Origin: Plumapathes pennacea
Taxonomy: Eukaryota > Cnidaria > Anthozoa > Antipatharia > Myriopathidae
NCBI GenBank assembly: GCA_964036295.1
Contig: OZ038469.1
Location: 7,022,067-7,086,066, forward strand
DNA: 64,000 nucleotides
Direction: 5' to 3'
Below are positions 24,182 through 64,000 of the stretch, piece after piece. The notes under the pieces were generated by a model. It searched no databases and had not been told where the DNA came from. It saw only the letters and a program-made list of their open reading frames with translations. Within the stretch, counting starts at the first letter, position 1, and every line of letters begins with the position of its first letter. The translations under genes and the position numbers were made by a program.

Positions 24182-24204
24182 GGGAATACCCCGTGTCGTA
24201 GGCT
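24086..24204 (+). rRNA. RN5S: 5S rRNA, unit 18
   Basis: Left array unit 18; the last gene before the gap and the orientation switch. Confidence 0.96.
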
Positions 24205-24672
24205 TCCTTTTTCATTTTTCTCACACAAAACCGCCCGGTACTCCGTCAGTTTGCGGCCTGAAGAGTTCAAATTTTGCAGTGTACGAAAAAAGATGTGTAG
24301 GGTTGTTTTTTTAAACAACAAAAGAACAAAAAATCACACAGATCGAGATCTTTTCTGCAATTATAAGTGACAAGCGCTTGCACGCACGCACGCGCGCGCG
24401 CGCGCGCGCACGGACGTGCGCTTGTCCTTGTGACGAATTTGCACGTTCCACTGTCAACAATGAACATAAAACGTTCCATTAACACCTAAACTTCGAGCCC
24501 AACAAGTCGTTCAAAAAGTACCAAGAGGCGCCAGAACGGGAGAAATAAAAATTGTCACACGTACCAGACGATTGACAGTGAACATGAGCACGTGAATGAA
24601 CATATGGTTTGTTTTTAGTCCCCACTTGCCTTTCTTCTTCTTCAACGTTTCTGCTGCAAGACAAAATCAAAC

Positions 24673-24872
24673 NNNNNNNNNNNNNNNNNNNNNNNNNNNN
24701 NNNNNNNNNNNNNNNNNNNNNNNNNNNNNNNNNNNNNNNNNNNNNNNNNNNNNNNNNNNNNNNNNNNNNNNNNNNNNNNNNNNNNNNNNNNNNNNNNNNN
24801 NNNNNNNNNNNNNNNNNNNNNNNNNNNNNNNNNNNNNNNNNNNNNNNNNNNNNNNNNNNNNNNNNNNNNNNN
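24673..24872. other. Assembly gap (200 N)
   Basis: Exactly 200 N, a round number typical of a scaffold join of unknown true size. The array changes orientation across it. To the left the sequence stops in the spacer between 5S and U1; to the right it restarts in the spacer upstream of U2. Confidence 0.98.
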
Positions 24873-24984
24873 GTCGATTAACGAGAGGAGGCCTGGGACT
24901 AAGTGTCTTGCCTCCACATACATGGGGACTTGTGGTGGCCGCGAGGAACTGGGGGAAAACGAATACCACATGTAGGGAGATTTT

Positions 24985-24999
24985 GTGGCGGACGGCCAC
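24985..24999 (+). promoter_or_regulatory. Inverted repeat in U2 proximal promoter
   Basis: A perfect 5-bp inverted repeat (GTGGC, 5-nt spacer, GCCAC) at -36 to -22 of the U2 start, repeated upstream of every U2. A candidate proximal sequence element may lie just upstream (CCACATGTAGGGAG from about -55). Metazoan snRNA promoters usually carry a PSE near -55, but the motif is lineage-specific, so this is only a positional guess. Confidence 0.3.
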
Positions 25000-25020
25000 C
25001 CTAAGAAACTAGAAGTCGGT

Positions 25021-45610: not shown

Positions 45611-45747
45611 TTTTCTTAGTTTGTCGTAAGTTTCGAGATAGCTCCTTGGTTTCTGATCGCCCGTTCGTTCCTTTTAGTGTCTTGGATATATAGCCGTTTT
45701 AGCTCCAAGATACAATTTTAGTTTTTATTTTTCGCGTCTCCAACTCA

Positions 45748-46671
45748 ATGTCTGGCGGATTCACGCCACGCCGGACCGTACGGCTCTTCCCTGACGGCGA
45801 GGATGTCGACGTTTTGGAAATCGCCCATGCTCTGACAGAGCAGAAGGAGAGCATTCAAGGCATCCAGCCCCGCTTTGGAGGGAAATGCTATGACGTGACC
45901 TTCAAAGATAACATAAGCGCCGAAACAGCGGCTTCAACTGGCCTAGACATCGCTGGCCGCCATTTTGACCTCAAGGTAGTAGGCCGAAAGAACCTTGACG
46001 TGTCAGTGTTTGTCTCGTGCGAGTTCCCCGACGCATACCTGATCGAAGCCCTGAAGCAATACGGGGAGTTCAACCTCAACATACGACATCTGTATCTGAA
46101 GGAACCTGGGTTTACCCATATAGAAAACGGTATAAGGGTCATCACCTTTACCAAGATGACGAAATCTCTCCCGCCCATGCTAGTCTATCGCAACACGCCA
46201 CTGAGCTTTAGATACACTGGCCAACCCAAGGTGTGTTTCAAGTGTGGCTCGGCTGAACATTTAATCAGGGAATGCCCGAAGAAAAACAAGCGCCAAGTCC
46301 CGGTGGAAACCGCCGACGAAGCAGTTCCTGCGTCTGAGGAGGAAACCGGGAACGTTACACAGCGCGAGGAAACCGCGGACAACTCGTCCTCACACGAAAT
46401 GGATGAGGACGAGCGGAAAGGAACCAAACGAGCGCGCTCGTCTGACAACGAACCAGCAGCGAAGCACAGCACCCCAGCGGCCACTTCACAAGACACTCCA
46501 GAACTTTTCACTCCTGCACCTTCGGAAACTCCAACAACATCTAACACAGCATCTAACACGGCATCTAACACAGAATCTACCAGCTCACAACCCACAACTG
46601 AACCTCCCTTTCAACCCGTCACCTCTGGGCCCACCTACAAGAAATTCATCGAGGCGCTCAAGAACCGGTGA
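45748..46671 (+). CDS. ORF1 gag-like nucleic-acid-binding protein, truncated (copy 1)
   Basis: A 307-aa product that should package element RNA into a ribonucleoprotein for retrotransposition. Residues 1 to about 155 resemble the N-terminal region of Tx1-type ORF1 proteins. A CCHC zinc knuckle follows (C163, C166, H171, C176; CX2CX4HX4C), then an acidic, Ser/Thr-rich, probably disordered segment with a basic KGTKRARSS patch and a short SNTA repeat. The frame stops at TGA 46669-46671. In copy 2 the same site reads GGA and the frame continues for 89 residues; the two copies differ at two adjacent bases (46668-46669, GT against TG). The downstream frame to 46938 is still open here, so the stop is the only ORF1 lesion. 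Start chosen at the first ATG after the 5' UTR. Confidence 0.9.
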   Translation: MSGGFTPRRTVRLFPDGEDVDVLEIAHALTEQKESIQGIQPRFGGKCYDVTFKDNISAETAASTGLDIAGRHFDLKVVGRKNLDVSVFVSCEFPDAYLIEALKQYGEFNLNIRHLYLKEPGFTHIENGIRVITFTKMTKSLPPMLVYRNTPLSFRYTGQPKVCFKCGSAEHLIRECPKKNKRQVPVETADEAVPASEEETGNVTQREETADNSSSHEMDEDERKGTKRARSSDNEPAAKHSTPAATSQDTPELFTPAPSETPTTSNTASNTASNTESTSSQPTTEPPFQPVTSGPTYKKFIEALKNR

Positions 46672-46938
46672 AAAAACCGTTCTCAGCTCGTCAAGGTGAT
46701 CGACGGGGGCGTTTTTTACCGGGCTCAAGGACTTTGGCTCCAGTACCAATATGGGGACTTCGCCGACAGCTCCCGGGCCGCTCAACAAGGCTACTCAGAC
46801 AGATGTTTGGAGGAGTGGCGGCGCGTACACGGGCAACTTCGCCAGGACGCCTTCGCCGAGATGTTGACACTGTACCAAGAGCTAAGAGACAAATTTGTTT
46901 TATTCCCGTCGAAACCCTCTAAAGTTTCCCAATCTTAA
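46672..46938 (+). pseudogene. ORF1 C-terminal segment, untranslated after stop (copy 1)
   Basis: In frame with the 307-aa ORF1 and matching the last 88 residues of the intact copy 2 protein, but separated from the rest by the TGA. The segment is charged and aromatic and looks helical. Readthrough would restore it. Confidence 0.85.
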
Positions 46939-46943
46939 TCATC

Positions 46944-49900
46944 ATGTATCCTTTCACCGTATTTGTAGTCCTAATGGCTTTATCTATATGTTCGCTCAAT
47001 GTAAATGGTATTCAGGAAAGGTCGAAGCGGAGTAAAGTATTTGCTTCGCTTCGAGCTAAGAATTGCGACATCTATCTTCTGCAGGAGACGCATGTACAGA
47101 GCGTGTCCGAGGGAGAACAGTGGGAGAGAGAATGGGGCGGGCGAGCAATCTTCTCGCCCGGCTCAAACCGCTCAGCCGGCGTGGGTTTACTCATTGCCCC
47201 ACGGTCACAGCTAAAAGTCGCCAGCCACCGAACGGATAAACAAGGGCGCCTAATTTCGGCCAAAATTCAATCTCTTGCATCACCCAATTCGGATTTCCAA
47301 ATCCTCAACGTCTACGCGCCGAACATAGTGTCTGCCCGCAGGGAATTTTTTGACACCTTTTGGCAACACATTTTCCCAAATGTGCCGCTCGTGCTGGGTG
47401 GCGACTTTAATTGTGTACCTGATGTGCACAGAGATAAGTTTGGCGGTGATGACACCTTTGGGGACAAAGGCATCACTGAGCTAAATTCCTTCACAGCGGC
47501 CAATTCTCTGATTGATATTTATCGTTCTAAATTCCCAAACACCTCTGTGTACACTTGGGTTAATGGACCCCGTACCGTCGGCTGTCGGCTTGATCGTTTC
47601 TACGTGCCGCAGTCATGGAAAATGCAAGTTTCCGAAGTGACTGTAAAACCTTTCGCTTATTCGGACCACTCGTTGGTACGGATGACGTTCACCGTGGGGC
47701 ATTCAAAGTCCCGCGGGAGGGGCGTCTGGAAATTCAACACGTCTCTTCTAAAGTCAGAATCGTTCTGCGAAGAGACTCTGAATTTCCTAAAGCACTGGCG
47801 GACACAGAGAGCGTCCTATACAGACCCCAGAGTCTGGTGGGACGCGGGGAAATTGTTTATCAAACAGATAGCAATTGACCACAGTGTCCGCCGTGCGAAA
47901 GACCGGAGATCCAAAGTGGCCGCCCTGGAGACCGAGTATCAAGATATTTTAAGTAAAGTCGATTCAAGCGACAGCGCTCAGCGTGCTCGATTGCTGGAGA
48001 TCAAGGAGTCCCTTCAGGCAATGGAGGATGAGCGCATAGAGGGAATAAAAATTCGGAGCAAAGAAAATTGGCTTGAATTTGGCGAAAAACCCACCAAGTA
48101 TTTCTTTCAATTGGAGAACAAAACGCAAACAAAACATGCCATTAACGCCCTGCGGGTTGGCACGGTCACTGTCACGACCGATAAAGAAATACTTGCCGAA
48201 GCTTTGAATTTTTATAAGGCCCTCTATACGGAAGAACCTGTTGACGAGGCCTGTCAGAACTGGCTCCTCGGTCAGTTAGATAAAACCTTGGCATGCAAAG
48301 ACCAAGCAAAATGCGAAGGCGAACTAACGCTCTCTGAGTGTTATGACGCTCTCAACTCAATGGAGTCTGGCAAATCTCCCGGTCCGGATGGTTTGCCTGC
48401 TGAGTTCTACTTAAGATTCTGGGGTCACCTAGGGCCAGATCTTGTCAACACGCTGAATTATAGCTACGACAAAGGCGAGCTCTCAGTAACACAGCGCCGA
48501 GCGGTACTCCGACTTTTGTTTAAGAAGGACGACCCGGAGCTGCTGAAAAATTGGCGACCAATCTCTTTGCTAAACGTGGACTACAAGATCGCCACAAAAT
48601 GTTTAGCGAACAGATTACGCACAGTTATCCGGCATGTGGTCTCTGAAGATCAAACATGCGGGATACCTGACCGCAGTATTCACGAAAATCTTTTTCTGAT
48701 TCGCGATGCGATTAATTACGTGCAGGAGAAAAACCTTCCCCTGGCACTTATTAGTTTAGATCAGGAAAAGGCTTTTGACAGAGTCAACCGCCGCTTCCTC
48801 GGCAGGATCTTAGAAAAAATGAATTTCGGTCCGAGCTTCCGGCGCTGGATTGAAGTCATTTACGCAGGCACGCAATCGGCTATTGTAAACAATGGCTGGC
48901 TGTCCGATTATTTCACGCTCACCAGAGGGGTGCGACAGGGTTGTCCCCTGTCGCCTCTTCTGTACTGTTTAGTGGCTGAAACTTTAGGCCAAGCAATCAG
49001 GAACGATAAATTTATCGAGGGAATTCAAATCCCAGGGTCATCTGGCAAGGAGAGTCGCATCTCCCAATATGCCGATGACGGAACCCTGCTGCTCCGGAAT
49101 AACTTTTCAGTTGACCGAGCTTTCGGTATAATTGAATCGTTTGAACGGGGTTCAGGCTCCAAACTGAATCCTGATAAGACTGAGGGGATCTGGGTAGGCT
49201 CTAAAGCCGGTCAGTCCACAGGTCCGCAGTCCAACAAAATGTCTTGGCGTTCAGACAAGATTAAAGTCCTTGGCCTGTTTTTCGGTAACGGAAAACTTGA
49301 CAGGGCAAATTGGTCTGATCGCGTGAAGAAACTGGAAAAGCGCCTGAACTGTTGGAAATCGCGCACTCTTTCCCTCAAGGGAAAGGCAATGATTGTCAAT
49401 ACTTTGGGCGCTTCTGGCCTTTGGTACACAGCCACGGTTTTGCCGATGCCCAACTGGGTTCACACGCAAGTCTATCAGTTAATCTGGGACTTCCTGTGGT
49501 CAGGTAAAACTGAACTCGTGAAGCGTGAAACCTGTACACTGCCCTGTGATCAGGGCGGCTTACAGGTCATAAATCCTGCGGAGAAAGCGAAGGCTCTAAA
49601 GCTGCGCTGGTTTCCTTGCCTGGGAAATCCAGCATACACCGCCAAATGGGCGTATTTCGGACGTTACTGGCTCGGTTTGCCGATCGGTAAATTGTTGCCG
49701 GATTGGGGATTCCTCCGGGATAACTCCCGACCGAAATACGCGGGTGATAATCGACCCAGAATCTACAAGAAGCTTCTAACTGACATCGACAGAGTCAAGT
49801 CTGACTTGCCTCAGCTGCAGGACTACCGAGTGAAAACTTTTTATCTCCTGCTTGTTCGGTCTCCGGGCCGATTAGCTTGTGAGTCCACGTGGACTTCGGA

Positions 49901-50477
49901 GCTCGGGCTTCGACTCACGTGGACGGATCTCTGGCCCCGTATCTACGGTGGTTTGAATCACAACAAAGAATGCGATGTAGCGTGGAAGATCGCTCACGGA
50001 GTCCTTCCAACAAAGGCATATTTACACACCTGGAAACGACTTCGGTTGAGTGAACGCTGCTCGCGCTGTAAGGCGCGGGAAACGATCTCTCACATCTTCC
50101 TCGACTGCGCTCAGGCGCCTTCTGTGTGGGGATGGTTGTCGCAATTTACTTCTAAAGTCACTGCCATTAAATTAGAGCCAGCTACTGTCCTGCTCGGCCA
50201 CGGCTTATCCTGGACGAAGCAGGACAAACACAAATCGCTATTATTTTTATATTTAATTAAGGTCACTCTCAATGCCCTTTGGCAGGCCCGGAATTTATCT
50301 ATTTTTGAACGCAAACAACTCTCACACACCGAACTCACAACGCAAATCACTCAAACGGTTCGTTTTCGAATCAAATCAGCATACAAACACAACACAACCG
50401 ACCACTTTACCCAATCCTGGGCAATAAATAACGCGCTCTGCTCTATCACGCAGGGCAAGCTAGCTTTTCACATTTAA
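46944..50477 (+). CDS. ORF2: APE endonuclease / reverse transcriptase (copy 1)
   Basis: A 1,177-aa enzyme for target-primed reverse transcription. An apurinic-type endonuclease spans about residues 12-250: SLNVNG 17-22, catalytic E48 in LLQETH, GDFN 153-156, SDH 240-242. The reverse transcriptase spans about 470-760: GKSPGPDG from 476, NWRPIS 536-541, motif A D606 followed by KAFD, motif B RGVRQG near 661-666, catalytic YADD 709-712. Near the C-terminus is CX2CX7HX4C (C1039, C1042, H1050, C1055), the zinc-finger-like motif of L1-group ORF2 proteins. No frameshift or stop. The ATG is 5 nt after the ORF1 frame's TAA; a second ATG at 46974 gives MALSICSLNVNG and may be the true start. It differs from copy 2 at residues 264 (F/L) and 403 (L/P). 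Confidence 0.96.
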   Translation: MYPFTVFVVLMALSICSLNVNGIQERSKRSKVFASLRAKNCDIYLLQETHVQSVSEGEQWEREWGGRAIFSPGSNRSAGVGLLIAPRSQLKVASHRTDKQGRLISAKIQSLASPNSDFQILNVYAPNIVSARREFFDTFWQHIFPNVPLVLGGDFNCVPDVHRDKFGGDDTFGDKGITELNSFTAANSLIDIYRSKFPNTSVYTWVNGPRTVGCRLDRFYVPQSWKMQVSEVTVKPFAYSDHSLVRMTFTVGHSKSRGRGVWKFNTSLLKSESFCEETLNFLKHWRTQRASYTDPRVWWDAGKLFIKQIAIDHSVRRAKDRRSKVAALETEYQDILSKVDSSDSAQRARLLEIKESLQAMEDERIEGIKIRSKENWLEFGEKPTKYFFQLENKTQTKHAINALRVGTVTVTTDKEILAEALNFYKALYTEEPVDEACQNWLLGQLDKTLACKDQAKCEGELTLSECYDALNSMESGKSPGPDGLPAEFYLRFWGHLGPDLVNTLNYSYDKGELSVTQRRAVLRLLFKKDDPELLKNWRPISLLNVDYKIATKCLANRLRTVIRHVVSEDQTCGIPDRSIHENLFLIRDAINYVQEKNLPLALISLDQEKAFDRVNRRFLGRILEKMNFGPSFRRWIEVIYAGTQSAIVNNGWLSDYFTLTRGVRQGCPLSPLLYCLVAETLGQAIRNDKFIEGIQIPGSSGKESRISQYADDGTLLLRNNFSVDRAFGIIESFERGSGSKLNPDKTEGIWVGSKAGQSTGPQSNKMSWRSDKIKVLGLFFGNGKLDRANWSDRVKKLEKRLNCWKSRTLSLKGKAMIVNTLGASGLWYTATVLPMPNWVHTQVYQLIWDFLWSGKTELVKRETCTLPCDQGGLQVINPAEKAKALKLRWFPCLGNPAYTAKWAYFGRYWLGLPIGKLLPDWGFLRDNSRPKYAGDNRPRIYKKLLTDIDRVKSDLPQLQDYRVKTFYLLLVRSPGRLACESTWTSELGLRLTWTDLWPRIYGGLNHNKECDVAWKIAHGVLPTKAYLHTWKRLRLSERCSRCKARETISHIFLDCAQAPSVWGWLSQFTSKVTAIKLEPATVLLGHGLSWTKQDKHKSLLFLYLIKVTLNALWQARNLSIFERKQLSHTELTTQITQTVRFRIKSAYKHNTTDHFTQSWAINNALCSITQGKLAFHI

Positions 50478-50634
50478 TGTGCAGAGTCACGCTCGCGTGA
50501 TTCGTTCCTAATTAGTTTCTAATTGTTTTTGAGGACAGTCACCCTGTGACTGCCCCGTTGCTGTAAACACGGTACTTTTAAGTACCTGCTAAACGGCTCA
50601 AGTGCCGATAATTTTTGATCCCTTGATTTTTCCA

Positions 50635-50717
50635 AAGTTAAGCCCGTTCCGGCGGGGACAATTTCTGGATGGGTGACCGTCAGGGAATGCCTTGATCGAG
50701 TTTCCTTTTTCATTTTT
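50635..50717 (+). other. 5S rRNA-derived segment 1 in 3' UTR (copy 1)
   Basis: Aligns with 5S from about nt 48 through the 3' end and into its downstream flank. AAGTTAAGCCCG (A-box region) and GGATGGGTGACCG (C-box region) are identical to the array 5S. The end TTCCTTTTTCATTTTT matches the terminator flank exactly. The middle and the helix I part have diverged. The first 47 nt of 5S are absent. Confidence 0.85.
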
Positions 50718-50790
50718 AGCATTTTCAATCAGCTATATCTCACTCGTTATTAATCTCCAATCCATAATTTTTGTTACATGATTTAGTCTA

Positions 50791-50867
50791 CCGCATAGAG
50801 TCAACCTTTCGTCCATAACTAAACTTATGCAGGTCTGGGCGTGCCTGTAGTACCGGGCTCTATGCGG
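50791..50867 (+). other. Structured hairpin domain 1 in 3' UTR (copy 1)
   Basis: A perfect 10-bp outer stem (50791-50800 with 50858-50867) encloses a smaller CAGG/CCTG hairpin. The duplicate at 51052-51128 keeps both stems while the loop varies, as expected of a selected RNA structure. Confidence 0.6.
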
Positions 50868-50895
50868 CTTATGACCCTTATAATTCATAATTCCC

Positions 50896-50978
50896 AAGTT
50901 AAGCCCGTTCCGGCGGGGACAGTTTTAGGATGGGTGACCGTCAGGGAATACCTTGACCGAGTTTCCTTTTTCCTTTTT
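50896..50978 (+). other. 5S rRNA-derived segment 2 in 3' UTR (copy 1)
   Basis: Second copy of the 5S-like segment. It keeps the same 12-nt and 13-nt identical blocks and GGGAATACC, and ends TTTCCTTTTTCCTTTTT. Confidence 0.85.
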
Positions 50979-51051
50979 AACATTTTCAATCAGTTAGATC
51001 TCACTTGTTATTAATCTACACTCAATAATTTTTGTTACATGATTTAGTATA

Positions 51052-51128
51052 CCGCATAGAGTCACCCTTTCGTCCATTAAAAGACTTATGCAGGTCTGGG
51101 CGTGCCTGTAGTACTGGGCTCTATGCGG
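51052..51128 (+). other. Structured hairpin domain 2 in 3' UTR (copy 1)
   Basis: The same 10-bp outer stem as domain 1 (51052-51061 with 51119-51128). Confidence 0.6.
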
Positions 51129-51318
51129 CAGAATTACCATAATTCACTCTAGGTAGAAAAAGAAAAATAGCACATAAATATCATTATAAGAGGGAATACC
51201 CCTCGCATATACAACAAAAACATATCAAACTCTCAAAATAGTAACTTGCATGTCAGTCGGCCTCAGATGTCTGTCTGTCTGCTGACTCAAAGTTATGTAA
51301 ATAAAAATAAATAAACGG

Positions 51319-51332
51319 GGAGCTTCGGCTCC
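51319..51332 (+). other. 3'-terminal UUCG hairpin (copy 1)
   Basis: GGAGC-TTCG-GCTCC, a 5-bp stem capped by the very stable UUCG tetraloop, 24 nt from the element end. 3'-terminal stem-loops are recognition elements for reverse transcriptases of several LINE families. Confidence 0.7.
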
Positions 51333-51356
51333 TTCAGTTTTAAAAACAAAAAAAAA

Positions 51357-54074: not shown

Positions 54075-54211
54075 TTTTCTTAGTTTGTCGTAAGTTTCGA
54101 GATAGCTCCTTGGTTTCTGATCGCCCGTTCGTTCCTTTTAGTGTCTTGGATATATAGCCGTTTTAGCTCCAAGATACAATTTTAGTTTTTATTTTTCGCG
54201 TCTCCAACTCA

Positions 54212-55402
54212 ATGTCTGGCGGATTCACGCCACGCCGGACCGTACGGCTCTTCCCTGACGGCGAGGATGTCGACGTTTTGGAAATCGCCCATGCTCTGAC
54301 AGAGCAGAAGGAGAGCATTCAAGGCATCCAGCCCCGCTTTGGAGGGAAATGCTATGACGTGACCTTCAAAGATAACATAAGCGCCGAAACAGCGGCTTCA
54401 ACTGGCCTAGACATCGCTGGCCGCCATTTTGACCTCAAGGTAGTAGGTCGAAAGAACCTTGACGTGTCAGTGTTTGTCTCGTGCGAGTTCCCCGACGCAT
54501 ACCTGATCGAAGCCCTGAAGCAATACGGGGAGTTCAACCTCAACATACGACATCTGTATCTGAAGGAACCTGGGTTTACCCATATAGAAAACGGTATAAG
54601 GGTCATCACCTTTACCAAGATGACGAAATCTCTCCCGCCCATGCTAGTCTATCGCAACACGCCACTGAGCTTTAGATACACTGGCCAACCCAAGGTGTGT
54701 TTCAAGTGTGGCTCGGCTGAACATTTAATCAGGGAATGCCCGAAGAAAAACAAGCGCCAAGTCCCGGTGGAAACCGCCGACGAAGCAGTTCCTGCGTCTG
54801 AGGAGGAAACCGGGAACGTTACACAGCGCGAGGAAACCGCGGACAACTCGTCCTCACACGAAATGGATGAGGACGAGCGGAAAGGAACCAAACGAGCGCG
54901 CTCGTCTGACAACGAACCAGCAGCGAAGCACAGCACCCCAGCGGCCACTTCACAAGACACTCCAGAACTTTTCACTCCTGCACCTTCGGAAACTCCAACA
55001 ACATCTAACACAGCATCTAACACGGCATCTAACACAGAATCTACCAGCTCACAACCCACAACTGAACCTCCCTTTCAACCCGTCACCTCTGGGCCCACCT
55101 ACAAGAAATTCATCGAGGCGCTCAAGAACCGTGGAAAAAACCGTTCTCAGCTCGTCAAGGTGATCGACGGGGGCGTTTTTTACCGGGCTCAAGGACTTTG
55201 GCTCCAGTACCAATATGGGGACTTCGCCGACAGCTCCCGGGCCGCTCAACAAGGCTACTCAGACAGATGTTTGGAGGAGTGGCGGCGCGTACACGGGCAA
55301 CTTCGCCAGGACGCCTTCGCCGAGATGTTGACACTGTACCAAGAGCTAAGAGACAAATTTGTTTTATTCCCGTCGAAACCCTCTAAAGTTTCCCAATCTT
55401 AA
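54212..55402 (+). CDS. ORF1 gag-like nucleic-acid-binding protein, intact (copy 2)
   Basis: 396 aa. The same N-terminal region and CCHC knuckle (C163, C166, H171, C176) as copy 1. Codon 308 is GGA, so the frame continues into an 89-residue C-terminal segment with a helical, charged pattern (around CLEEWRRVHGQLRQ) that presumably mediates oligomerisation or contact with ORF2. The latter role is inference. The YTGQPKVCFKC junction into the knuckle resembles YSGQPKICRVC in the U1-inserted element, so the two ORF1 proteins are related. ORF1 ends TAA 5 nt before the ORF2 ATG, a spacing that suits termination and reinitiation. Confidence 0.93.
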   Translation: MSGGFTPRRTVRLFPDGEDVDVLEIAHALTEQKESIQGIQPRFGGKCYDVTFKDNISAETAASTGLDIAGRHFDLKVVGRKNLDVSVFVSCEFPDAYLIEALKQYGEFNLNIRHLYLKEPGFTHIENGIRVITFTKMTKSLPPMLVYRNTPLSFRYTGQPKVCFKCGSAEHLIRECPKKNKRQVPVETADEAVPASEEETGNVTQREETADNSSSHEMDEDERKGTKRARSSDNEPAAKHSTPAATSQDTPELFTPAPSETPTTSNTASNTASNTESTSSQPTTEPPFQPVTSGPTYKKFIEALKNRGKNRSQLVKVIDGGVFYRAQGLWLQYQYGDFADSSRAAQQGYSDRCLEEWRRVHGQLRQDAFAEMLTLYQELRDKFVLFPSKPSKVSQS

Positions 55403-55407
55403 TCATC

Positions 55408-58400
55408 ATGTATCCTTTCACCGTATTTGTAGTCCTAATGGCTTTATCTATATGTTCGCTCAATGTAAATGGTATTCAGGAAAGGTCGAAGCGGAGTAAA
55501 GTATTTGCTTCGCTTCGAGCTAAGAATTGCGACATCTATCTTCTGCAGGAGACGCATGTACAGAGCGTGTCCGAGGGAGAACAGTGGGAGAGAGAATGGG
55601 GCGGGCGAGCAATCTTCTCGCCCGGCTCAAACCGCTCAGCCGGCGTGGGTTTACTCATTGCCCCACGGTCACAGCTAAAAGTCGCCAGCCACCGAACGGA
55701 TAAACAAGGGCGCCTAATTTCGGCCAAAATTCAATCTCTTGCATCACCCAATTCGGATTTCCAAATCCTCAACGTCTACGCGCCGAACATAGTGTCTGCC
55801 CGCAGGGAATTTTTTGACACCTTTTGGCAACACATTTTCCCAAATGTGCCGCTCGTGCTGGGTGGCGACTTTAATTGTGTACCTGATGTGCACAGAGATA
55901 AGTTTGGCGGTGATGACACCTTTGGGGACAAAGGCATCACTGAGCTAAATTCCTTCACAGCGGCCAATTCTCTGATTGATATTTATCGTTCTAAATTCCC
56001 AAACACCTCTGTGTACACTTGGGTTAATGGACCCCGTACCGTCGGCTGTCGGCTTGATCGTTTCTACGTGCCGCAGTCATGGAAAATGCAAGTTTCCGAA
56101 GTGACTGTAAAACCTTTCGCTTATTCGGACCACTCGTTGGTACGGATGACGTTCACCGTGGGGCATTCAAAGTCCCGCGGGAGGGGCGTCTGGAAACTCA
56201 ACACGTCTCTTCTAAAGTCAGAATCGTTCTGCGAAGAGACTCTGAATTTCCTAAAGCACTGGCGGACACAGAGAGCGTCCTATACAGACCCCAGAGTCTG
56301 GTGGGACGCGGGGAAATTGTTTATCAAACAGATAGCAATTGACCACAGTGTCCGCCGTGCGAAAGACCGGAGATCCAAAGTGGCCGCCCTGGAGACCGAG
56401 TATCAAGATATTTTAAGTAAAGTCGATTCAAGCGACAGCGCTCAGCGTGCTCGATTGCTGGAGATCAAGGAGTCCCTTCAGGCAATGGAGGATGAGCGCA
56501 TAGAGGGAATAAAAATTCGGAGCAAAGAAAATTGGCTTGAATTTGGCGAAAAACCCACCAAGTATTTCTTTCAATTGGAGAACAAAACGCAAACAAAACA
56601 TGCCATTAACGCCCCGCGGGTTGGCACGGTCACTGTCACGACCGATAAAGAAATACTTGCCGAAGCTTTGAATTTTTATAAGGCCCTCTATACGGAAGAA
56701 CCTGTTGACGAGGCCTGTCAGAACTGGCTCCTCGGTCAGTTAGATAAAACCTTGGCATGCAAAGACCAAGCAAAATGCGAAGGCGAACTAACGCTCTCTG
56801 AGTGTTATGACGCTCTCAACTCGATGGAGTCTGGCAAATCTCCCGGTCCGGATGGTTTGCCTGCTGAGTTCTACTTAAGATTCTGGGGTCACCTAGGGCC
56901 AGATCTTGTCAACACGCTGAATTATAGCTACGACAAAGGCGAGCTCTCAGTAACACAGCGCCGAGCGGTACTCCGACTTTTGTTTAAGAAGGACGACCCG
57001 GAGCTGCTGAAAAATTGGCGACCAATCTCTTTGCTAAACGTGGACTACAAGATCGCCACAAAATGTTTAGCGAACAGATTACGCACAGTTATCCGGCATG
57101 TGGTCTCTGAAGATCAAACATGCGGGATACCTGACCGCAGTATTCACGAAAATCTTTTTCTGATTCGCGATGCGATTAATTACGTGCAGGAGAAAAACCT
57201 TCCCCTGGCACTTATTAGTTTAGATCAGGAAAAGGCTTTTGACAGAGTCAACCGCCGCTTCCTCGGCAGGATCTTAGAAAAAATGAATTTCGGTCCGAGC
57301 TTCCGGCGCTGGATTGAAGTCATTTACGCAGGCACGCAATCGGCTATTGTAAACAATGGCTGGCTGTCCGATTATTTCACGCTCACCAGAGGGGTGCGAC
57401 AGGGTTGTCCCCTGTCGCCTCTTCTGTACTGTTTAGTGGCTGAAACTTTAGGCCAAGCAATCAGGAACGATAAATTTATCGAGGGAATTCAAATCCCAGG
57501 GTCATCTGGCAAGGAGAGTCGCATCTCCCAATATGCCGATGACGGAACCCTGCTGCTCCGGAATAACTTTTCAGTTGACCGAGCTTTCGGTATAATTGAA
57601 TCGTTTGAACGGGGTTCAGGCTCCAAACTGAATCCTGATAAGACTGAGGGGATCTGGGTAGGCTCTAAAGCCGGTCAGTCCACAGGTCCGCAGTCCAACA
57701 AAATGTCTTGGCGTTCAGACAAGATTAAAGTCCTTGGCCTGTTTTTCGGTAACGGAAAACTTGACAGGGCAAATTGGTCTGATCGCGTGAAGAAACTGGA
57801 AAAGCGCCTGAACTGTTGGAAATCGCGCACTCTTTCCCTCAAGGGAAAGGCAATGATTGTCAATACTTTGGGCGCTTCTGGCCTTTGGTACACAGCCACG
57901 GTTTTGCCGATGCCCAACTGGGTTCACACGCAAGTCTATCAGTTAATCTGGGACTTCCTGTGGTCAGGTAAAACTGAACTCGTGAAGCGTGAAACCTGTA
58001 CACTGCCCTGTGATCAGGGCGGCTTACAGGTCATAAATCCTGCGGAGAAAGCGAAGGCTCTAAAGCTGCGCTGGTTTCCTTGCCTGGGAAATCCAGCATA
58101 CACCGCCAAATGGGCGTATTTCGGACGTTACTGGCTCGGTTTGCCGATCGGTAAATTGTTGCCGGATTGGGGATTCCTCCGGGATAACTCCCGACCGAAA
58201 TACGCGGGTGATAATCGACCCAGAATCTACAAGAAGCTTCTAACTGACATCGACAGAGTCAAGTCTGACTTGCCTCAGCTGCAGGACTACCGAGTGAAAA
58301 CTTTTTATCTCCTGCTTGTTCGGTCTCCGGGCCGATTAGCTTGTGAGTCCACGTGGACTTCGGAGCTCGGGCTTCGACTCACGTGGACGGATCTCTGGCC

Positions 58401-58941
58401 CCGTATCTACGGTGGTTTGAATCACAACAAAGAATGCGATGTAGCGTGGAAGATCGCTCACGGAGTCCTTCCAACAAAGGCATATTTACACACCTGGAAA
58501 CGACTTCGGTTGAGTGAACGCTGCTCGCGCTGTAAGGCGCGGGAAACGATCTCTCACATCTTCCTCGACTGCGCTCAGGCGCCTTCTGTGTGGGGATGGT
58601 TGTCGCAATTTACTTCTAAAGTCACTGCCATTAAATTAGAGCCAGCTACTGTCCTGCTCGGCCACGGCTTATCCTGGACGAAGCAGGACAAACACAAATC
58701 GCTATTATTTTTATATTTAATTAAGGTCACTCTCAATGCCCTTTGGCAGGCCCGGAATTTATCTATTTTTGAACGCAAACAACTCTCACACACCGAACTC
58801 ACAACGCAAATCACTCAAACGGTTCGTTTTCGAATCAAATCAGCATACAAACACAACACAACCGACCACTTTACCCAATCCTGGGCAATAAATAACGCGC
58901 TCTGCTCTATCACGCAGGGCAAGCTAGCTTTTCACATTTAA
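55408..58941 (+). CDS. ORF2: APE endonuclease / reverse transcriptase (copy 2)
   Basis: 1,177 aa, with the same domain order as copy 1: endonuclease (E48, GDFN 153-156, SDH 240-242), reverse transcriptase (D606, YADD 709-712) and C-terminal CX2CX7HX4C (C1039-C1055). Residue 264 is L (F in copy 1) and residue 403 is P (L in copy 1). Both lie outside the recognised catalytic motifs; L403P falls in the linker between endonuclease and reverse transcriptase. The alternative start MALSICSLNVNG lies 10 codons in. All visible catalytic residues are present, so activity is plausible. Confidence 0.96.
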   Translation: MYPFTVFVVLMALSICSLNVNGIQERSKRSKVFASLRAKNCDIYLLQETHVQSVSEGEQWEREWGGRAIFSPGSNRSAGVGLLIAPRSQLKVASHRTDKQGRLISAKIQSLASPNSDFQILNVYAPNIVSARREFFDTFWQHIFPNVPLVLGGDFNCVPDVHRDKFGGDDTFGDKGITELNSFTAANSLIDIYRSKFPNTSVYTWVNGPRTVGCRLDRFYVPQSWKMQVSEVTVKPFAYSDHSLVRMTFTVGHSKSRGRGVWKLNTSLLKSESFCEETLNFLKHWRTQRASYTDPRVWWDAGKLFIKQIAIDHSVRRAKDRRSKVAALETEYQDILSKVDSSDSAQRARLLEIKESLQAMEDERIEGIKIRSKENWLEFGEKPTKYFFQLENKTQTKHAINAPRVGTVTVTTDKEILAEALNFYKALYTEEPVDEACQNWLLGQLDKTLACKDQAKCEGELTLSECYDALNSMESGKSPGPDGLPAEFYLRFWGHLGPDLVNTLNYSYDKGELSVTQRRAVLRLLFKKDDPELLKNWRPISLLNVDYKIATKCLANRLRTVIRHVVSEDQTCGIPDRSIHENLFLIRDAINYVQEKNLPLALISLDQEKAFDRVNRRFLGRILEKMNFGPSFRRWIEVIYAGTQSAIVNNGWLSDYFTLTRGVRQGCPLSPLLYCLVAETLGQAIRNDKFIEGIQIPGSSGKESRISQYADDGTLLLRNNFSVDRAFGIIESFERGSGSKLNPDKTEGIWVGSKAGQSTGPQSNKMSWRSDKIKVLGLFFGNGKLDRANWSDRVKKLEKRLNCWKSRTLSLKGKAMIVNTLGASGLWYTATVLPMPNWVHTQVYQLIWDFLWSGKTELVKRETCTLPCDQGGLQVINPAEKAKALKLRWFPCLGNPAYTAKWAYFGRYWLGLPIGKLLPDWGFLRDNSRPKYAGDNRPRIYKKLLTDIDRVKSDLPQLQDYRVKTFYLLLVRSPGRLACESTWTSELGLRLTWTDLWPRIYGGLNHNKECDVAWKIAHGVLPTKAYLHTWKRLRLSERCSRCKARETISHIFLDCAQAPSVWGWLSQFTSKVTAIKLEPATVLLGHGLSWTKQDKHKSLLFLYLIKVTLNALWQARNLSIFERKQLSHTELTTQITQTVRFRIKSAYKHNTTDHFTQSWAINNALCSITQGKLAFHI

Positions 58942-59098
58942 TGTGCAGAGTCACGCTCGCGTGATTCGTTCCTAATTAGTTTCTAATTGTTTTTGAGGAC
59001 AGTCACCCTGTGACTGCCCCGTTGCTGTAAACACGGTACTTTTAAGTACCTGCTAAACGGCTCAAGTGCCGATAATTTTTGATCCCTTGATTTTTCCA

Positions 59099-59181
59099 AA
59101 GTTAAGCCCGTTCCGGCGGGGACAATTTCTGGATGGGTGACCGTCAGGGAATGCCTTGATCGAGTTTCCTTTTTCATTTTT
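59099..59181 (+). other. 5S rRNA-derived segment 1 in 3' UTR (copy 2)
   Basis: Matches the copy 1 segment at 50635. Confidence 0.85.
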
Positions 59182-59359
59182 AGCATTTTCAATCAGCTAT
59201 ATCTCACTCGTTATTAATCTCCAATCCATAATTTTTGTTACATGATTTAGTCTACCGCATAGAGTCAACCTTTCGTCCATAACTAAACTTATGCAGGTCT
59301 GGGCGTGCCTGTAGTACCGGGCTCTATGCGGCTTATGACCCTTATAATTCATAATTCCC

Positions 59360-59442
59360 AAGTTAAGCCCGTTCCGGCGGGGACAGTTTTAGGATGGGTG
59401 ACCGTCAGGGAATACCTTGACCGAGTTTCCTTTTTCCTTTTT
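59360..59442 (+). other. 5S rRNA-derived segment 2 in 3' UTR (copy 2)
   Basis: Matches the copy 1 segment at 50896. Confidence 0.85.
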
Positions 59443-59781
59443 AACATTTTCAATCAGTTAGATCTCACTTGTTATTAATCTACACTCAATAATTTTTGTT
59501 ACATGATTTAGTATACCGCATAGAGTCACCCTTTCGTCCATTAAAAGACTTATGCAGGTCTGGGCGTGCCTGTAGTACTGGGCTCTATGCGGCAAAATTA
59601 CCATAATTCACTCTAGTAGAAAAAGAAAAATAGCACATAAATATCATTATAAGAGGGAATACCCCTCGCATAAACAACAAAAACATATCAAAATCTCAAA
59701 ATAGTAACTAGCATGTCGGTCGGCCTCAGATGTCTGTCTGTCTGCTGACTCAAAGTTATGTGAATAAAAATAAATAAACGG

Positions 59782-59795
59782 GGAGCTTCGGCTCC
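59782..59795 (+). other. 3'-terminal UUCG hairpin (copy 2)
   Basis: GGAGC-TTCG-GCTCC is unchanged although surrounding bases differ between the copies. Confidence 0.7.
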
Positions 59796-59818
59796 TTCAG
59801 TTTTAAAAACAAAAAAAA

Positions 59819-61341: not shown

Positions 61342-61534
61342 TCCCCTCCGGGGGAACCCAATAAAAGCAAAGAGAACATTGAGATAAAGGCCTGGGCCCC
61401 TAGTGCGTCGGTTCTGGCACACTTTAGCATGCAAGGCGGCATAGAATGGACGCTTGAAAGGGTGGAAGGGTCGTCCCATAAGGAAGGAAGCGGATGTGCG
61501 GTCGGCTCAGTTGTTTTGTGGACAAAACAACTTC

Positions 61535-62905: not shown

Positions 62906-62924
62906 ATACTTACCTGACGCGGGA
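62906..62924 (+). pseudogene. RNU1: U1 snRNA 5' stub, interrupted by a second element type
   Basis: The first 19 nt of U1 (ATACTTACCTGACGCGGGA), after which the sequence leaves the unit (CTATCGTTTTGG). The U1 promoter region and its hairpin are intact upstream. Confidence 0.92.
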
Positions 62925-63248
62925 CTATCGTTTTGGCGCGGGTTCAAGTCGCTGGAGTTACATCCAAGTTCATTCAAGCAAAGGATTTTGTAAGCCCTTC
63001 TTCTTTTTTCTTTTCTCTTTCCTTCTCTTGTTTGTTTTTTTGCGGCCACCCTCCTGGGGACTCCATGCTCAGTGCCTAGCACTGTAACCCAGGGTAACCG
63101 CTTTTCCTCTAATTTCTCGTATTCAACGCTCAACGGATTTATGCTCCGAATATTCGTAGCGGGAACCTCCATATTCCTGTAGAATATTCGGTAACGTTGA
63201 CTTGAATACCTAGCTCGCTCGGGTTCTTCCGACGAGTCCTTCTTGCTT

Positions 63249-63265
63249 CCCGAAAGTCTTTCGGG
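63249..63265 (+). other. Palindromic hairpin in 5' UTR of U1-inserted element
   Basis: CCCGAAAG, one base, CTTTCGGG: an 8-bp perfect inverted repeat followed by ATTTTT. It lies 65 nt before the ORF1 start. It could be a structural element of the 5' UTR; function unknown. Confidence 0.45.
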
Positions 63266-63330
63266 ATTTTTCGTCGCCAAGTTTGGCTCAATCGTCAGCG
63301 TTTTTCGCCATATTCTGCAAATTTTGCAAA

Positions 63331-64000
63331 ATGGCGCTTCGACGTTTGCGTACCCTTACGGCTCACGTACCTTCTCCACTCGGTATGGTTGACCGAAAGG
63401 TTTTTTTGGATGCTCTTCTAAAGAGCACACCTAAAGAAGCAGTAAAGTGTGTGCAAGACATGCACGGGTATTTTCGAGTCACTTTCATCTCGGAAGAGAC
63501 AAAAGATCTCTTTGCTTCTAATGGTATGACGGTGAAAGGGGTTTCAATCCCTTTACAAGAGGCCGATGAGGCCACTCTAGTTCGTCTCTATGGGGTACCT
63601 TTCGAGGTTCCCGAAGGAAACATCCGAGCCGTCCTAGGAAAATTTGGAAATGTCCTCTCCCACCAAATGGAGATGGATAAGAAATCTGGGATCCTGACAG
63701 GGACGCGCTTGATACGGATCCGACTCACCCAGCCTATCCCAGATAGGCTTTACGTCTTGAGATATAGGTTCCAAGTATGGTACTCGGGTCAACCGAAAAT
63801 CTGCCGGGTATGCCAAGTCCAGGGTCATGTGGCCGCACGCTGCCCTAACAAGGGCCTATGCCGAGTCTGCCGCCAACCGGGACACACAGCAAAGAACTGT
63901 CCTGAGGCAAACACCCTTGTCAGCCAAAATCCCTGGCATACTCGCCTAAGGTCCAATGCTGCATCTACCAATGTTGCAGATTCTGAAAGGATTGCTGAGC
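63331..64000 (+). CDS. ORF1 gag-like zinc-knuckle protein, partial (U1-inserted element)
   Basis: 223 complete codons, open to the window edge. An in-frame stop at 63211-63213 and the first in-frame ATG at 63331 set the start (MALRRLRTLTAHVPS). Residues from about 85 resemble an RRM-like fold (LVRLYGVPFEV, then an FGNV turn). Two CX2CX4HX4C knuckles follow: CRVCQVQGHVAARC at about 169-182 and CRVCRQPGHTAKNC at about 188-201. The lead-in WYSGQPKICRVC parallels YTGQPKVCFKC of the U2-inserted element, which has one knuckle. Role inferred: RNA binding and ribonucleoprotein formation. Confidence 0.85.
   Translation, partial: MALRRLRTLTAHVPSPLGMVDRKVFLDALLKSTPKEAVKCVQDMHGYFRVTFISEETKDLFASNGMTVKGVSIPLQEADEATLVRLYGVPFEVPEGNIRAVLGKFGNVLSHQMEMDKKSGILTGTRLIRIRLTQPIPDRLYVLRYRFQVWYSGQPKICRVCQVQGHVAARCPNKGLCRVCRQPGHTAKNCPEANTLVSQNPWHTRLRSNAASTNVADSERIAE

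Follow-up and report, generated by a model that had tools for sequence, protein, structure and literature searches.

Non-LTR retrotransposons very probably specific for one site of the U1 snRNA gene in the U1/U2/5S array of Plumapathes pennacea

Keno is a member of the Tx1 clade, a trait of which is a gag-like ORF1 with CCHC knuckles. In the accessible part of a 2015 paper, the only snRNA-gene transposons named are Keno and Utopia, which target U2, and Dada-U1 and Dada-U6, and Keno is recorded there from frogs, fish, lancelet and hydra (PMC4640811). The elements of Plumapathes pennacea described here, i.e., families A to D at one site of the U1 gene (site 1) and the S2 elements at another (site 2), are like Keno, as far as the accessible text describes it, in being LINEs with an AP-like endonuclease in a multicopy snRNA gene of an animal (PMC4640811). 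However, Keno, which is compared here by its description, targets U2, whereas families A–D and S2 lie in U1 and leave a duplication of 16–17 bp (site 1) or 8 bp (site 2). Utopia is similar, again according to the accessible part of the paper, in the strict snRNA-gene specificity of some of its families, in the presence of several families per array and in occasional tandem insertion (PMC4640811), but it belongs to an early-branching lineage with a restriction-like endonuclease and targets U2, whereas the endonuclease of the U1 families is AP-like. Dada-U1 also occupies a fixed U1 site and can be inserted in tandem (accessible part of PMC3706591); it is, however, a DNA transposon with a DDE transposase, for which a 6-bp duplication (GCGAAT/GCGAAC) at another U1 site is proposed in the accessible parts of PMC3706591 and PMC8869645, whereas the elements described here carry a reverse transcriptase (RT) and duplicate 16–17 bp or 8 bp elsewhere in U1. 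Among solved structures, the closest relative of the family A ORF2 is human L1 ORF2p, its best PDB match (E 6e-84; best R2 protein 1e-19), which aligns over query residues 3–862 and whose RT is ~28% identical to that of family A. To our knowledge, human L1 has no such fixed target, and its ORF1 is without zinc knuckles.

The window (the whole stretch of 64,000 nt that was analysed) is C8:7022067–7086066 of a 290-Mb genome in 24 contigs. It consists of a tandem array with units of ~1,371 bp, in which U1 (164 nt) and U2 are on the same strand and 5S is on the opposite strand. At window positions ~24200–25020 the orientation of the array flips, U1 and U2 being on the - strand leftward and on the + strand rightward. 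All U1- and U2-inserted elements found are in the right-hand + block, at ~7.05–7.42 Mb; in the + block listed at 6.84–6.88 Mb no inserted elements were found. Exact U1 starts that are uninterrupted at site 1 number at least 193 genome-wide (at least 71 on the + strand and at least 122 on the - strand), counts of repeats in the genome searches being lower bounds; 100 places are listed, all on C8, and at least one of these 193 starts (7167167) is interrupted at site 2. The search pattern ATACTTACCTGGC... had no match in the genome because the host U1 reads CTGACG.

The features at the right end of the window, their continuation and the related insertions are collected in Table 1. The initial annotation had placed the start of an element 19 nt inside a U1 gene, in the sense direction, and this is confirmed: U1 homology ends at 62925 and the element begins directly after U1 nt 19, the junction reading ATACTTACCTGACGCGGGA-GGTACTG in uninterrupted units and ...GGGA-CTATCG in the interrupted one. 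ORF1, with ATG 63331 as its start codon, is gag-like with two knuckles as had been claimed, and its supposed kinship with ORF1 of the U2 element, which has one knuckle, is borne out (25% identity over 147 aa, E 9e-11). Extension past position 64000, which had been proposed as a check, brings in an ORF2 and a 3′ junction at which U1 resumes. The ORF2 contains Exo_endo_phos (PF03372, E 4e-19), RVT_1 (PF00078, E 1e-32) and zf-RVT domains and is 35% identical to ORF2 of the U2 element; the strings GDFN, SDH and YADD are found in families A, B and C, and the literal string QETH is present in A and absent from B and C. The 3′ end of the element is ATAAAAAAAA, then comes CTTACCTGACGCGGGAGGTACTG and the rest of U1 continues after it; therefore, U1 nt 4–19 are duplicated (16 bp, or 17 if U1 contributes one A of the tail). 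The two ends of family A are unlike in sequence. That is to say, with an AP-like endonuclease and a reverse transcriptase in ORF2 and without LTRs, this is a non-LTR retrotransposon of the APE type, and the A-run at its 3′ end followed by the duplicated CTTACCTGACGCGGGA is the footprint expected of target-primed reverse transcription.

Table 1. Elements in the U1 and U2 genes of the array and their parts (window positions unless a contig or locus is given).
Feature	Position	Strand	Remark
U2a copy 1	45612..51356	+	after U2 nt 32; U2 resumes at GTATCTG
U2a copy 2	54076..59818	+	
U1 snRNA gene, interrupted 5′ piece	62906..62924	+	U1 nt 1–19
Target-site duplication, 5′ copy	62909..62924	+	CTTACCTGACGCGGGA, 16 bp (17 counting the preceding A)
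U1 site-1 family A element, 5′ part	62925..64000, on to C8:7090848 (L001:92-5949)	+	5,858 bp in full
ORF1 of family A, gag-like	63331..64000	+	430 aa in full, two CCHC knuckles; cut at window end
ORF2 of family A	L001:2222-5722		1,166 aa; beyond window
S2a	C8:7167200-7172546		interrupts U1 after nt 33
S2b	C8:7175259-7180941		interrupts U1 after nt 33

The exact 5′ junction between U1 and the element occurs six times in the 290-Mb genome. Patterns holding no element-internal sequence occur eight times for the 5′ junction, independently of family, and nine times for the 3′ junction between A-tail and U1; each of the three reversed controls gave 0. When the 226 bases at the 3′ end of the element were used as a similarity query, 19 matches were obtained, 14 on C8 and five on C2 and C9. 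All 14 of the 3′ ends on C8 adjoin the U1 site, with U1 from nt 4 or 5 following, in some cases with substitutions, and in L012 and L015 with the 16-mer and then the next element, while the five on C2 and C9 are matches to the 3′ tail that U1 does not follow. The first 328 bases of the element gave 17 matches, 15 of them on C8, where U1 up to ~nt 19 precedes (some with substitutions), except in L035, L036 and L040, which are preceded by the tail of another element plus the duplicated stretch; the remaining two are 5′-UTR fragments on C11 and C12, outside U1. The idea that all copies lie at U1 nt 19 thus holds on C8 (14/14 3′ ends and 15/15 5′ ends), where the copies behave as a site-specific element, and fails for the matches elsewhere (5/5 and 2/2), which are tail matches or fragments. 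We conclude that these elements are, very probably, a group of APE-type LINEs that insert strictly at one site of the U1 gene in the U1/U2/5S array.

The off-array loci on C2 (L019, L020, L021 and L025) and C9 (L023) carry the same hairpin-containing 3′ tail as the U1 elements but are not flanked by U1, and the ORFs of families A to C matched nothing in these 3.1-kb loci; it is possible that they are SINEs or another LINE with the same tail. The C11 fragment (L044:1470–1500) is preceded by ATGACTTACCCAACACAGGCA, which resembles the U1 site. At the expected end of a full element (L051) no element match was found, and in L044 the ORFs of families A to C had no counterpart and CTTACC did not occur a second time on the strand of the fragment. 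The fragment is not taken as evidence of off-target insertion.

In the proposed course of insertion, the first nick would fall on the bottom strand, which is complementary to the 5′ end of U1; the AP-like endonuclease of ORF2 would make it beside CAGGTAAG^T, the position to which the 3′ junction points. Reverse transcription of the element RNA, starting in its A-rich 3′ tail, would be primed by the freed end, the top strand would be cut 16–17 nt further, after U1 nt 19, and second-strand synthesis would leave the duplication of 16–17 bp. The 5′ end of U1 pairs with 5′ splice sites, and its bottom-strand complement reads as a consensus 5′ splice site; since site 1 overlaps this pairing stretch, such a splice-site consensus stands on the strand that would be nicked. 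The sequence just before the interrupted U1 (62906) matches uninterrupted units (window 61480–61534), which suggests that the U1 promoter could transcribe the element. Over 1.5 kb upstream, three of the five family A copies are without substitutions among themselves, copy 7128734 has 27 substitutions and ~130 gap columns, and copy 7298941 is not alignable over the whole. If the element were transcribed from the U1 upstream region, U1 nt 1–19 would stand at the 5′ end of its RNA, which could explain the precise 5′ junctions.

Site 1 is occupied by at least four families with distinct ORF2, A (L001), B (L045), C (L046) and D (L047), an assignment that leaves out some decayed copies. Their RTs are 60–72% identical although the site is shared, and they therefore do not represent one insertion that was duplicated. 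ORF1 and ORF2 are open in the copies of A, B and C that were read, and the ORF2 of D has two stops. Family A has five full copies among the protein-search matches listed, in which the A-run varies from 7 to 10 nt and the substitutions differ as well. Between copies 7084992 and 7121491 there is no difference in the 3,553 bases that were compared, and some copies therefore probably arose by duplication of array blocks and not by retrotransposition; other pairs differ by 0–6 substitutions per 1.7–1.8 kb, except in the 3′ part of 7137352 (15–21), whose 3′ tail resembles the tails of B and C. A block with two U2a elements and one family A element at C8:7069–7090 kb is seen again at C8:7107–7127 kb, ~36–38 kb on, and this recurrence is likely a duplication within the array. 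Some elements stand head to tail with the duplicated 16-mer alone between them (L012/L036 and L015/L035, with L040 similar), so that the sequence flanking the 16-mer would be dispensable on one side at least. At L041/L022 (C8:7211.6–7213.6 kb), site 1 holds a derivative of ~2 kb with only the start of ORF1 and the end of ORF2, which appears to be an internally deleted copy and is perhaps non-autonomous.

The resemblance between families differs from one part of the element to another. The first 187 nt of A and B are 97% identical, whereas their ORF1 proteins are 30% identical; C and D agree at 84% in their first 1.9 kb and at 65–68% in the alignable parts of ORF2. Judging from such mosaics, co-resident families appear to exchange modules. 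The number of CCHC knuckles per ORF1 is two in A–D and in S2b, one in U2a and three in U2b. In the 3′ tails, which come from related and not independent copies, a hairpin whose 5-bp stem carries the loop TTCGATT is found in 15 of 19 (absent in L017, L024, L026 and L027), and the stem varies with pairing kept (CCAGG/CCTGG, CAAGG/CCTTG and CGAGG/CCTCG, and one CGAGG/CCTTG with a G-T pair); a second one, GTAGC-TGGT-GCTAC, is present in 19/19, in L027 as GTGGC-TGGT-GCCAC. The first hairpin bears what we take to be a resemblance to the T-arm of tRNA; nevertheless, the family A 3′ UTR yielded nothing in Rfam (E up to 5) or with ARAGORN and therefore belongs to no known tRNA or RNA family there. It is plausible that these hairpins serve as recognition elements for the RT.

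In the S2 elements, U1 resumes at nt 26, which gives an 8-bp duplication, GTGATCAT (nt 26–33). They end in ATTTAAA and lack a long A-tail, whereas the site-1 families end in an A-tail, and a search with the 3′ end of S2b gave three places (in one case a match of 75 bases), with U1 nt 26 next in 3/3. Insertion of U2a, whose two copies are 99.8% identical, leaves no duplication and costs 2–3 bases of U2; the ORF1 frame is shorter in copy 1 than in copy 2 (307 vs 396 aa). In U2b, U2 is broken after ~nt 33 (one 5′ end) and resumes at nt 37–38 (two copies).

The origin of U1 targeting was approached with an unrooted RT tree of 458 columns comprising A–D, S2a, S2b, U2a, U2b, human L1 and six off-array loci of three families, a small choice out of 1,174 candidates, 40 of which were scored. 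Among these loci, L053 (C8:7217500–7224500) lies inside the array interval and was counted as off-array because snRNA matches in the 7 kb read did not exceed 13 nt. The array families are split from the sampled off-array loci and human L1 at 99.9/99 (SH-aLRT/UFBoot), and A–D from the rest at 100/100. The former split lends substance to the initial suggestion that a target shift within the array is plausible; in the one off-array family checked (two copies), no shared 3′ flank was found. We lean towards the reading that one APE LINE lineage settled in the U1/U2/5S array and radiated onto at least three sites (U1 nt 3/19, U1 nt 25/33 and U2 near nt 32–38) by target switching among neighbouring genes of the repeat unit, with swapping of 5′ UTR, ORF1 and 3′ tail modules. 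Whether U1 was reached once or twice is evenly poised: site 1 (A–D) and site 2 (S2) may have been acquired independently, from U2-targeting or other ancestors, as the RTs of the two groups (43–45% identical) are no closer to each other than either is to U2a (47–50% for site 1 and 45–46% for S2), the maximum likelihood tree joins S2 with the U2 families (support 1.5/26) and the 3′ ends differ, A-tail against ATTTAAA. However, the AU test does not reject the constraint that unites all U1 families (p 0.515) or that which places S2 outside site 1 plus U2 (p 0.45–0.52 over the set, in which the members of each of two pairs of constraints amount to a single split when the tree is unrooted, and two further constraints coincide with the maximum likelihood tree).

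A simpler history, in which a weakly specific LINE entered U1 once by chance and array duplication or gene conversion spread the insertion, could draw on the U2a/U2a/family A block that recurs ~36–38 kb away with two family A copies free of differences in the compared parts. It is nevertheless hardly credible in view of families with divergent ORF2 at the identical site, each with its own tail, of A-runs of different lengths, and of elements that adjoin one another at the duplicated 16-mer. The strict site specificity argued above is thus the reading retained, and the question is whether it has been described before. It is unlikely that these are Keno-like elements of the Tx1 clade with a U1 specificity already catalogued, e.g., in Repbase, even though APE-type U2 families that fit the description of Keno also reside in the array, and frogs, fish, lancelet and hydra are recorded as hosts of Keno (accessible part of PMC4640811). 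Keno targets U2, and the accessible part of that paper gives only Keno and Utopia for U2 besides Dada-U1 and Dada-U6; in the accessible parts of PMC7754599 and PMC13188248 there is nothing on U1-targeting retrotransposons. The statement of the initial annotation that it knew of no described U1-targeting non-LTR family agrees with the open literature searched, in which none was found in the titles and starts of abstracts listed, most subscription papers, preprints and Repbase lying outside this search. In our judgement, the U1 elements are a variant of APE-type site-specific LINEs with a new target.

The pairing stretch for 5′ splice sites is one of the best conserved segments of U1 RNA, and since the nicked site lies in it, animals in general probably possess this target. 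For non-LTR retrotransposons, U1 would be new as a target, with two distinct sites in one gene of 164 nt. Related endonucleases with different targets in one array offer a comparative set for the residues that set site specificity, which are of interest to programmable retrotransposon tools, and the radiation of a single lineage over the array, if true, would be a natural experiment on the change of endonuclease specificity.
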